From Desulfuromonadaceae bacterium (GTDB lineage: Bacteria; Desulfobacterota; Desulfuromonadia; Geobacterales; Pseudopelobacteraceae), in contig JAQUIG010000021.1 in NCBI GenBank assembly GCA_028683435.1, positions 1-44,701 of the forward strand: a DNA stretch of 44,701 bases. Direction: 5' to 3'. Below, one piece after another: positions 3,819 through 40,138 of the stretch. How positions within the stretch are numbered: the stretch's first letter is position 1; every line of letters begins with the position of its first letter. A model generated the notes under the pieces. That model had not been told where the DNA came from. It did no database searches and saw nothing but the letters and a program-made list of their open reading frames with translations. A program made the position numbers and the translations under genes.

Positions 3819-3859
3819 AAGCTTCCTATATGACTGATATAGGAAGCTTTTTGTTTTTT
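3819..3859 (+). terminator. Rho-independent terminator after tRNA-Ala
   Basis: Thirteen-bp perfect arms (3819-3831 and 3837-3849) surround loop GACTG and are followed by a T-rich tract. Confidence 0.9.
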
Positions 3860-4066: not shown

Positions 4067-4777
4067 TCAGAATGCCATCTCAGGCTTCCACTCTTTCCAG
4101 ACATTGCCAGCCAGATCCGGGCCCGGTTTGAGGGTCGGTTTACCTGGCACCCAACCGGCGGGTGTCACTTCCCCGGTTGCACGTACATGCTGGAATGCCT
4201 TGATTTGGCGGATCAGTTCATTGACATTGCGGCCAACTTCCGGTGTCATTACTTCCATGGCTCTGATATTGAAATCGGGATCAATGAGGAATCTACCGCG
4301 GATATCAACGCCTGCGGCCGGTTCAAAGACACCGTAGGCCTGGCCAATCAGGCCACTTGCATCGGCAATCATCGGGAACTGCACCCCGCCGGGTATCATC
4401 TTGGAAAGTTCTTCTGCCTGCCATATTTTGTGGACAAAGCGGCTATCCGTACTTGCTGAGAATACTTCTACACCCAGCTCCTTCAATTCTGCATGCTTGA
4501 CGGCGACCGCCGTCAGTTCAGTCGGTCAAACAAAGGTGAAATCGCCCGGATAGAAACAGAGGACAATCCACTTTCCTTTTGAATCAGAGAGTTTCATGGT
4601 TTCGAAGCCGCCGTTCAGATAGACGTTGGCCTCAAAATCCGGGGCAGGATGCCCGACGCGTGCGACTGTCATAATTCGCTCCTCCTTTGGTGGTTGTGCT
4701 GAAGTTGATGAATCCGGCATGTTGCCTGCTGTCAATGGACCTGCTGCCGTTGCAACGCAACCCTGACTAGTTTCCAT
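4067..4777 (-). CDS. selenocysteine-containing peroxiredoxin (AhpC/Prx1 type), UGA read through
   Basis: Two open frames in the same phase (4843-4526 and 4486-4067) join into one 236-aa peroxiredoxin if the TGA at 4528-4526 is read as selenocysteine (residue 84). The motif [14 protein letters not shown] carries Sec exactly where the peroxidatic Cys sits. Supporting motifs are [44 protein letters not shown] and [14 protein letters not shown]-like hairpin lies just downstream of the UGA. The start at 4777 is chosen because AAGGAG is 7 nt upstream; an internal ATG at residue 36 also has a GGAGGAG site, so a shorter form is possible. The usual resolving Cys near the C-terminus (EVCPAGW) is Thr here (EVTPAGW). 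The enzyme reduces H2O2 or organic peroxides. It is monocistronic, with its own terminator. Confidence 0.92.
4498..4515 (-). promoter_or_regulatory. SECIS-like hairpin downstream of the UGA codon
   Basis: Ten bases after the UGA the minus strand reads TGACGGC-GGTC-GCCGTCA, a perfect 7-bp stem with a GGTC loop. The apical loop starts 18 nt after the UGA, within the spacing known for bacterial SECIS elements. The GGU(C) loop resembles the E. coli fdhF element that SelB binds. The hairpin lies inside the coding sequence, as bacterial SECIS elements do. Confidence 0.75.
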
Positions 4778-5063
4778 ACGCATTCTCCTTTTTCCTGAAA
4801 TAGTGCTGCCGACGAGTAGTTGTGACGCAGGTCGCCATGCCACAGATAAAAGTTTAGCACAACCTTATCATGATACAAGCAGCGTAGAGGTTTTTTTGCG
4901 ATTACAGGTGTCGTGTATTTTACGCTGTCAGAGACTTCAGTTCTCTGCTATATAACCGGGCAAAACCAAGTAACGGTTGGGTAGTATCTGATGGATTGAA
5001 CCAACTGTATCAATTTTATTCTTGTCGCCACGTCGTTTCTATTTCCAATTACCGGTGCGAGTT

Positions 5064-5891
5064 ATGAGTTCTGACCACAAACTGTTTTTGACGCCCCGTG
5101 AGGCGGCCCATGCGATCACGATAAACGGTCGCCGCGTTCTTGACCAAAATATCGGGCGCACCCTGGTTCTCAGTCTGCTGGCCGGATTTTACATCGCATT
5201 CGGCGCTCAGTTGTCAACAATTGTCATGCAGGATGCCGCCCAGTTTGTCGGCTTCGGAATCGCCCGGTTTCTGGGCGGAAGCCTCTTCTCGGTCGGCTTG
5301 ATGTTGGTCGTCGTCTGCGGCGCCGAGCTGTTTACCGGAAACAGTCTGCTGGCCGGGGCGGCCCTCCATGGGGAAATATCGTGGCGTAACCTTGCCAAAA
5401 ACTGGACAATTGTGCTGGTCGGCAATTTTGTCGGTGCTCTGTTCTTCGCGTGGCTGCTGTTTGAAACGCGTCTCTGGGAACAGGGGAGCGTTGCTGAAAA
5501 CGCTATTCGCATCGCAACTGTCAAATGCCAACTATCTTTTACGACCGCTTTTGTTCGGGGAATCCTCTGTAACTGGCTCGTCTGCCTTGCTGTGTTTATG
5601 GCCACAGCCGCCCGTGATATCACCGGAAAATTGCTTGCGTGCTATGTGCCTATCATGACCTTCGTTGCGAGTGGATTTGAGCACTCAATTGCCAATATGT
5701 ATTACATTCCAACTGGTCTGTTTATTGCCGGCAAAAACGCGACCGCAGATCCTGCACTAAACTGGTATAATTTTTTCGTTGCTAATCTGCTGCCGGTTAC
5801 TCTTGGTAATATAGTCGGTGGCGTTATTTTTGTCGCCGGTGCCTATTGGTACGCCTACGGCGCAATAGATGCACCGGAACGGCCGCTATAG
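5064..5891 (+). CDS. formate/nitrite transporter family channel
   Basis: This 275-aa FocA/NirC-family membrane protein has six predicted transmembrane segments. Seen motifs are FYIAFGAQLSTIV (helix 1), CGAELFTGN, the helix 3 segment VGNFVGALFFAWL, GILCNWLVCLAVFMA (broken helix 5) and GFEHSIANMYYIP with the conserved central histidine. The family forms pentameric channels for small monovalent anions (formate, nitrite, hydrosulfide); which one cannot be told. The frame is open to a TTG at 5022, but the ATG at 5064 fits the normal N-terminus better; its ribosome binding site is weak. It stands alone between the divergent peroxiredoxin and ispG. Confidence 0.9.
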   Translation: MSSDHKLFLTPREAAHAITINGRRVLDQNIGRTLVLSLLAGFYIAFGAQLSTIVMQDAAQFVGFGIARFLGGSLFSVGLMLVVVCGAELFTGNSLLAGAALHGEISWRNLAKNWTIVLVGNFVGALFFAWLLFETRLWEQGSVAENAIRIATVKCQLSFTTAFVRGILCNWLVCLAVFMATAARDITGKLLACYVPIMTFVASGFEHSIANMYYIPTGLFIAGKNATADPALNWYNFFVANLLPVTLGNIVGGVIFVAGAYWYAYGAIDAPERPL

Positions 5892-38971: not shown

Positions 38972-40138
38972 ATGTCTATTCCGATCTTATACAGCCTCCG
39001 TAATCTCTCCACTCGCAGATTAACAACCTTTTTAACCGCTTCCGGAATGGCACTGGTGGTGTTTGTCTTTGCCTCAATCCTGATGTTGTCGGCAGGATTG
39101 GAAAAAACACTGATTGAAACCGGTTCAGACGATAATGTGATAATTACCCGTAAAGCCGCGAATTCCGAGGTGCAAAGCGGTGTCGAGCGCAGCCAGGCTG
39201 CCATCATCGAGAGCCTGCCCGATATTGCAACCGGCAGTCAGGGGGAAGCGCTGCTGGCCAAGGAGCTGGTGGTGCTTATCAGCCTTCCGAAAAGGGATAG
39301 TGACAAGCCGGCCAATGTTGTCATACGCGGTATACAGAGCGCCTCGCTGCAACTCAGGCCTCAAGTTGTGTTACGTGAAGGGCGGATGCCCAGGGCCGGT
39401 TCAGCTGAAATCATGGCCGGCAGCAGTATTGCTGCTCGATTCAAAGGTGGAGGAATTGGTGAAACCCTTCGCTTCGGTATGCGTGACTGGACAGTGGTCG
39501 GCATTTTTGATGCCGGTGCGACCGGCTTCAGTTCCGAAATATGGGGGGATGCAACCCAGTTGATGCAGGCGTTTCGTCGTCCTGTATACTCTTCGCTGAC
39601 ATTTCGCTTGCGTGACAGCGCTGAATTTCCAGAGGTCAAGGCCAGGCTGGATGCAGATCCGCGCCTCACGGTTGATGTGCGCCGCGAAACCCGGTATTAC
39701 CGTGATCAGTCCGAAGTCATGGCAAAGTTTCTCCGGATTCTTGGTCTGTCGCTGACGGTTATCTTTTCAATCGGTGCGATCATCGGCGCCATGATAACCA
39801 TGTACGCCGCCGTAGCCAACAGGGTAGGGGAGATCGGCACACTTCGGGCGCTCGGCTTTCAAAGCTCAAGCGTGCTGGCGGCATTTCTGCTGGAATCCTT
39901 GCTTTTAGGACTAATCGGGGGCATTACCGGGCTGATCTGTGCGTCATTTATGCAGCTTATTACCATCTCAACCATGAACTGGCAGACCTTTTCGGAGCTC
40001 GCATTCTCCTTTACGCTTACATTTGACATTGCATGGAAATCGTTGCTGTTTTCAATCATAATGGGTTTCATCGGCGGCGTCATTCCGGCCATCCGGGCCA
40101 GCAGGCTCAAAATTGTTGATGCACTCAGAGAACATTAA
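38972..40138 (+). CDS. ABC transporter permease, FtsX/MacB family
   Basis: This 388-aa membrane protein has one N-terminal helix (about 20-42, TASGMALVVFVFASILMLSAGL), a periplasmic MacB_PCD-like domain (about 45-245) and a C-terminal FtsX domain with three helices. The last part reads AAVANRVGEIGTLRALGFQSSSVLAAFLLESLLLGLIGG and ends IRASRLKIVDALREH. Such permeases (LolC, MacB, DevC type) move lipoproteins or drive periplasmic partners using an ATPase. No ATPase or membrane-fusion gene is in the window. It is 3 bp after pilS and therefore probably in the pil transcript; a role in pilus function is only suggested by position. Confidence 0.9.
   Translation: MSIPILYSLRNLSTRRLTTFLTASGMALVVFVFASILMLSAGLEKTLIETGSDDNVIITRKAANSEVQSGVERSQAAIIESLPDIATGSQGEALLAKELVVLISLPKRDSDKPANVVIRGIQSASLQLRPQVVLREGRMPRAGSAEIMAGSSIAARFKGGGIGETLRFGMRDWTVVGIFDAGATGFSSEIWGDATQLMQAFRRPVYSSLTFRLRDSAEFPEVKARLDADPRLTVDVRRETRYYRDQSEVMAKFLRILGLSLTVIFSIGAIIGAMITMYAAVANRVGEIGTLRALGFQSSSVLAAFLLESLLLGLIGGITGLICASFMQLITISTMNWQTFSELAFSFTLTFDIAWKSLLFSIIMGFIGGVIPAIRASRLKIVDALREH

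Follow-up and report, generated by a model that had tools for sequence, protein, structure and literature searches.

We report that the window, by which we mean the whole 44,701-nucleotide stretch of Desulfuromonadaceae DNA analysed here, encodes a peroxiredoxin, PrxU, in which the peroxidatic residue is very probably selenocysteine (Sec) and the arrangement of the remaining cysteines departs from that of typical 2-Cys enzymes. Taken as a whole, the evidence makes it likely that prxU is a Sec peroxiredoxin gene with, probably, two translation starts, and a cysteine in an N-terminal motif (Cys7) may be the resolving residue. An earlier interpretation of the letters alone (the sequence-only reading) had noticed neither the loss of the C-terminal resolving Cys nor the N-terminal motif with its Cys, and it had not remarked on a second start.

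The minus-strand frame 4777-4070 is interrupted solely by a TGA at 4528-4526, which splits it into two open stretches (Table 1). The sequence-only reading had proposed that these stretches form one 236-aa peroxiredoxin if the TGA is decoded, and that the TGA falls on the catalytic Cys. Both proposals were borne out: the read-through translation matched the PrxU model NF040737 with 370.3 bits against a cut-off of 270, covering model positions 2-233 of 233, and the TGA aligned with the peroxidatic Cys in 2-Cys peroxiredoxins of known structure. Pfam domains PF00578 (AhpC-TSA) and PF10417 (1-cysPrx_C) were found in the product, both above cut-off, and its residues P77-x3-T81-F-V-U84 conform to the PxxxTxxU pattern. 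Structure comparison of the predicted model showed a fold close to that of 7kj1 (probability 1.00, TMt 0.85, 41% identity); the AF2 model of the 236-aa product has a mean pLDDT of 78, with residues 81-83 beside the Sec below 50. The window gene is prxU, encoding a Prx1/AhpC-type peroxiredoxin, and in this respect nothing sets it apart from the rest of a selenoprotein family already described.

Table 1. Features of prxU and its predicted signals in the window.
Feature	Position	Strand	Basis or remark
prxU coding sequence, long form, 236 aa	4070..4777	(-)	TGA read as U; stop codon TGA 4069-4067
Shine-Dalgarno AAGGAG of long form, 7 nt before ATG 4777	4785..4790	(-)	Shine-Dalgarno conservation
N-terminal motif GCVxxAxGP, residues 5-14 (Cys7 at 4759-4757)	4736..4765	(-)	Conservation of Cys7 and Gly13
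Internal Shine-Dalgarno AAGGAGG, 8 nt before internal ATG	4681..4687	(-)	Conservation of Shine-Dalgarno and in-frame start
Internal ATG (Met36), at which a 201-aa short form lacking Cys7 is predicted to start	4670..4672	(-)	Conserved signals
Cys74, ten residues before Sec84	4556..4558	(-)	Invariant in 80/80 aligned rows
In-frame UGA at the peroxidatic position (residue 84, predicted selenocysteine)	4526..4528	(-)	Conserved TGA; Sec machinery in own genome
Bacterial SECIS hairpin, 7-bp stem UGACGGC/GCCGUCA, loop GGUC	4498..4515	(-)	Covariation; absent from Cys homologues
Thr205, in place of C-terminal resolving Cys	4163..4165	(-)	T 67, M 11, L 1, A 1, Cys 0 (80 rows)

prxU is the only gene between a divergently oriented formate/nitrite transporter gene and a tRNA-Ala. 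The transporter gene (5022-5891, plus strand) matched TIGR00790 above cut-off; in many Sec-using organisms, Sec goes into formate dehydrogenase. Between prxU and the tRNA-Ala, a 13-bp inverted repeat with T runs on both strands (3819-3849) resembles a bidirectional terminator, although such matches are about as common in shuffled sequence (2 versus a mean of 1.7). No conserved neighbours of prxU were found among 71 loci, where the commonest ORF cluster occurred in 7 loci only; one cluster, in 5 of the 71, is presumably rubrerythrin.

Sec is almost certainly inserted at the UGA by SelB and tRNA-Sec, steered by a covarying downstream hairpin. Absence of the Sec machinery was among the things that the sequence-only reading had named as overturning its proposal. 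All four components are present above cut-off in the source genome, an assembly of 3.17 Mb in 97 contigs with a completeness of 99.9%: tRNA-Sec (79.6 bits against a gathering threshold of 47), SelB and SelA lie on one contig (C13), and SelD on another (C45). Only matches above cut-off were counted, because weak ones are common in control genomes: among 14 such genomes, any match at all was obtained for tRNA-Sec in 14, SelA in 4, SelB in 14 and SelD in 14, and matches above cut-off in 5, 1, 2 and 2, respectively.

The comparison with Sec and Cys homologues that the sequence-only reading had called for agreed with decoding. Copies of prxU at 83-100% identity occur in 10 of 76 genomes of the family (its own included), each with exactly one TGA, and the nine closest orthologues (83-99% identity) all keep it at the peroxidatic codon. 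Matches above the prxU cut-off were found in 12 of 141 genomes of the order and in 130 of 395 genomes of the phylum sample. A scan of a collection of named genomes gave 186 loci, the best 80 of which were kept; by title they include Trichlorobacter thiogenes, Geobacter spp., Desulfocarbo indianensis and many Anaerolineae. Eight of these 80 (L051-L058) apparently duplicate family-level loci. When the collection-scan relatives, L104 among them, were combined with the window and two order loci (L131 and L132), the peroxidatic codon was TGA in 83 of 83 loci, the window's own gene being counted in the family set as well. In one genome (G277), two prxU genes lie about 5 kb apart on a single contig (C46, 53697 and 59039) with one TGA inside each. 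Five other TGA-bearing peroxiredoxin matches were fetched; codon counts cover four of them (G056, locus L148, was left out), and these were rejected as Sec proteins, their active-site codons being TGC (G036, G010) and TGT (G032, G058).

The hairpin described by the sequence-only reading, a perfect 7-bp stem with a GGUC loop starting 10 nt past the UGA, was found as stated (UGACGGC 4515-4509, GGUC 4508-4505, GCCGUCA 4504-4498), except that the distance from UGA to loop, given as 18 nt, is 17 nt. Bacterial SECIS elements are described, in passages of PMC12013277 and PMC1794560, as hairpins that closely follow the UGA and carry a G in their apical loop, a pattern that the prxU hairpin shares. The fold energy of the hairpin was not significant (z-scores of -1.0, -1.7 and -0.4, with competing folds), and an Rfam search of the hairpin stretch returned one match only, at chance level. 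When both strands of the window were scanned for TGA triplets, 145 of 1737 proved to have a hairpin of at least six pairs (G-U allowed) in similar geometry, and two have all eight pairs in the exact register, that of prxU and one at 39406. The hairpin alone is thus not beyond chance, and its weight rests on comparison.

In 80 distinct sequences, pairs 18-27 and 21-24, which join third codon positions on both sides (wobble to wobble), were paired in every one, while synonymous shuffles gave means of 64.9 and 65.5 and maxima of 71 and 74. The letters at 18-27 were GC 59, AU 18, UA 2 and GU 1, and those at 21-24, which spans the loop, GC 58, AU 20 and GU 2; pair 15-30 was paired in 70 of 80 (shuffles: mean 58.1, maximum 65). 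Cells changed on both sides numbered 64, compared with 17.5 for shuffled sequences, and sliding the stem never gave more than 26. Other measures went against the stem: pairs with a both-side change (4 versus 3.8 in shuffles), pair types (13 versus 15 when slid by +3), and paired cells (90.2% versus 87.1% when slid by -3). Of the outer pairs, 14-31 holds in 51 of 80 sequences and 16-29 in 58. RNAalifold retained the four inner pairs only, with a small covariation term. Of 143 distinct Sec sequences, 138 have the inner four pairs together with the loop pair and the GU, as do 0 of 14 Cys sequences, three of which keep the inner four pairs without the loop; this is partly a protein-sequence contrast, since the Cys sequences encode other residues there. 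The apical loop was GGUC or AGUU in 136 of the 143 Sec sequences. It is therefore covariation and the Sec/Cys contrast, not energy, that support the SECIS-like nature proposed from the sequence. Three Sec forms (L181, L188 and L191) have a GAUA apical loop and an inner-stem mismatch in the same register, perhaps reflecting another SECIS shape.

The conserved signals further suggest that translation of prxU probably begins at either of two starts in the same frame, each of them preceding the UGA, which would give forms of 236 and 201 aa. A conserved Shine-Dalgarno sequence and start codon were found at each site, the internal pair lying in frame between the N-terminal motif and the peroxiredoxin domain. 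A Shine-Dalgarno match (at least 6 nt) before an in-frame start, -60 to -40 codons from the Sec, occurred in 103 of 118 members bearing the N-terminal motif; a synonymous-codon null that ignores kinship gave a mean of 28.3 (sd 4.5, maximum 38, 100 redraws). When 117 distinct members were examined along the gene, 104 had such a site at -90 to -70 codons (the long start, which itself has a Shine-Dalgarno of at least 6 nt in 103) and 102 at -60 to -40, with 0, 0, 0, 2, 8, 2, 0 and 0 in eight other intervals around the Sec. The internal start codons were ATG in 87, GTG in 14 and TTG in 1, and the spacing to the internal Shine-Dalgarno was 7-8 nt in 67 of 102 and 4 nt in 18. Among the 98 members with the corresponding peptide pattern, the Glu codon within the internal Shine-Dalgarno was GAG in 94 and GAA in 4, compared with 666 GAG and 766 GAA elsewhere in the same comparison. 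Three Cys homologues (L031, L143 and L144) also possess an internal Shine-Dalgarno and start. An internal Shine-Dalgarno is likewise present in the TGA-bearing prxU of Trichlorobacter thiogenes ATCC BAA-34 (L057).

Two alternatives bear on how this frame is read. If the TGA were a true stop, prxU would be two independent genes or the halves of a decaying pseudogene, in keeping with mechanical ORF calling, which divides the frame there; the sequence-only reading's warning that automatic annotation would miss or split the gene holds to that extent, although an NCBIfam equivalog model exists. We give a true stop practically no chance, given that the TGA occupies the same codon throughout the 83 loci, the hairpin covaries, the genome encodes the Sec machinery, and both halves align as a single peroxiredoxin. 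In seven comparisons (against L052-L058), dN was 0.040-0.054 and dS 0.80-1.13 downstream of the TGA, and in the upstream 45 codons dN was 0.034-0.094 and dS 0.45-1.04; synonymous change predominates on both sides, which indicates purifying selection on both halves. One sequencing error common to ten genomes is not credible. The main rival to two protein forms is that only the long start is used, the internal AAGGAGG-ATG being a relic left over from a shorter ancestor of the gene, or else a pausing site. The site may indeed be inherited, as 35 of 41 members without the N-terminal motif have a Shine-Dalgarno (at least 6 nt) and start at the internal place; synonymous drift should have eroded a relic, yet the motif-bearing members keep the site far above the 28 expected, with the preference for GAG and the 7-8 nt spacing described above, and we regard this rival as unlikely.

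The C-terminal resolving Cys of typical 2-Cys peroxiredoxins, in the context GEVCPAxW, was not found in the prxU product, Thr205 standing in its place. In an alignment of 80 rows (the window and 79 loci, with L104, L131 and L132 left out), Cys7 and Gly13 were invariant in all 79 rows possessing an N-terminus, and the linker behind the motif varied in letters and length. The comparison was then widened to 161 members (164 parsed loci minus three outgroup loci); the 80 phylum loci consist of 20 top matches and 60 hand-picked among the matches listed, 43 of these 60 having been chosen for a missing N-terminus or stop or a low score, so the shares that follow are no census. Among 118 motif-bearing members (117 Sec and one Cys, L173), 117 have no C-terminal Cys, L222 alone having both cysteines. 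Among 43 motif-less members, the C-terminal Cys is present in 19 and absent from 24; two of these 24 (L126 and L216) have a broken N-terminus and were left out of the tree reading. On the tree, the motif needs 3 changes only, with 2 independent pairs on starred branches, so that no significance is possible; L174 and L175, which have the C-terminal Cys and no motif, fall inside a starred set of 30 rows, 24 of them motif-bearing. A statistical case for exchange of the N- and C-terminal Cys thus failed for want of independent changes, and the pattern of an N-terminal Cys replacing the C-terminal one across the family is suggestive. In AF2 models of the window product and of L085 (62 rows), block 11-20 has pLDDT values of 57 and 73 and contains a two-residue strand, and the motif rises above the low-confidence tail in both, residues 9-16 and 7-18 lying outside the segments below 50; Cys7 itself is below 50 in the first model.

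From these comparisons, Cys7 rather than a C-terminal Cys is plausibly the residue that resolves oxidised Sec84 in the long form, a proposal we hold tentatively. A one-Sec mechanism is also plausible, if somewhat doubtful: there would be no resolver, thioredoxin, glutaredoxin or a small thiol would itself reduce the Sec84 selenenic acid, and Cys7 would serve partner binding, metal binding or localisation. A selenenic acid reacts readily with thiols, according to a passage of PMC8533274, and 22 members have neither Cys (L126 and L216 set aside; six of the 22 bear a shifted Cys, PCGW), which implies that a resolver is not indispensable. Against a one-Sec mechanism stand the invariance of Cys7 ahead of a variable linker and the presence of a C-terminal Cys in 19 of 41 truly motif-less members versus 1 of 118 motif-bearing ones, a contrast weakened by kinship. 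That Cys74 resolves Sec84 in place of Cys7 is improbable; it is present in 117 of the 118 motif-bearing members as well as in every row of the alignment, and yet it falls within a strand that the model places at 70-77, ahead of the active site, and is also found in Cys homologues with a normal C-terminal resolving Cys (L031, L143 and L144).

Several groups at the edge of the family differ in their cysteines. A PrxU-like side branch (L204, L209 and L211-L214) has Cys at neither place and reads PCGW for CPxxW, possibly a shifted resolver. A nested group (L183, L193, L197 and L200) lacks the N-terminal motif, Cys74 and the C-terminal Cys, making its members candidate pure one-Sec peroxidases; in L193, L197 and L200 the active site reads YGGDYTFV-U-ATE. 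A Cys peroxiredoxin with 42-46% identity to PrxU (L031, L143, L144 and L152) has an N-terminal Cys in the sequence MACD or MGCD, and a partial copy of it is present in the source genome (C39); in L031, L143 and L144 this Cys is accompanied by a normal C-terminal Cys and an internal Shine-Dalgarno with its ATG, which lies 50 codons upstream of the peroxidatic Cys.

By analogy with the family, Sec84 would be oxidised by peroxide to a selenenic acid, which a thiol would then reduce. With Cys7 as resolver, the long form would respond by attack of Cys7 on the oxidised Sec to give a selenenylsulfide, to be opened by a thioredoxin-like reductant. The short form, more speculatively, would be a one-Sec peroxidase in its own right, or the two forms would assemble into a shared oligomer. 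It is conceivable, though we think it unlikely, that in many bacterial phyla one prxU yields a long self-resolving form and a short one-Sec form, and that mixed oligomers tune, through initiation, the balance between self-resolution and the passing of oxidised Sec to other thiols, as a relay or sensor.

Soehling et al. (2001) are said to have described a selenocysteine peroxiredoxin of Eubacterium acidaminophilum, an anaerobe, which is reportedly about 203 aa long with Sec at position 47; at that size it would have no N-terminal extension, like the predicted short form. The sequence-only reading was right that Sec peroxiredoxins are an established class, as NCBIfam NF040737 and selenoproteome surveys attest. 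NF040737 ("thioredoxin-dependent peroxiredoxin") has the same Sec at the peroxidatic site, and we found no difference between the window gene and this model, whose record as printed is silent on a second start and on a role for the N-terminal Cys. Passages of the surveys (PMC1088965, PMC13188914 and PMC1794560) give a peroxiredoxin family with a TxxU motif, shared with the window prxU, and list a peroxiredoxin selenoprotein for Geobacter metallireducens, Syntrophus and Syntrophobacter; of the family's sequence, these passages give the site motif only. Elsewhere, a Sec peroxiredoxin gene of Desulfococcus multivorans appears under two locus tags (excerpt of PMC5109826), and PrxU is up-regulated in Sulfobacillus thermotolerans grown on ore (excerpt of PMC7409299). 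The word "resolving" does not occur in PMC1088965 or PMC1794560, and the available portions of these two and of PMC13188914, PMC5109826, PMC7409299, PMC9312934 and PMC12013277 make no mention of an N-terminal resolving Cys or of two starts in the Sec peroxiredoxin family, in a literature search that was not aimed at internal initiation. Typical 2-Cys peroxiredoxins (human Prx2 and bacterial AhpC) share the fold and active-site sequence of the prxU product, which differs from them in having Sec for Cys, Thr205 for the C-terminal resolving Cys, and an N-terminal extension with Cys7.

The Sec site of the window is one more species in an established selenoprotein family, and the new part would be the architecture revealed by comparison. 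If true, the resolving Cys would have left the C-terminus for a mobile motif at the other end of the protein, and that motif would be made optional by a further conserved ribosome-binding site. Start calls for prxU genes may then err either way. If right, the proposed architecture would explain a strongly conserved peptide ahead of an otherwise normal peroxiredoxin and would supply a simple example, open to testing, of a bacterial antioxidant enzyme made in two forms.
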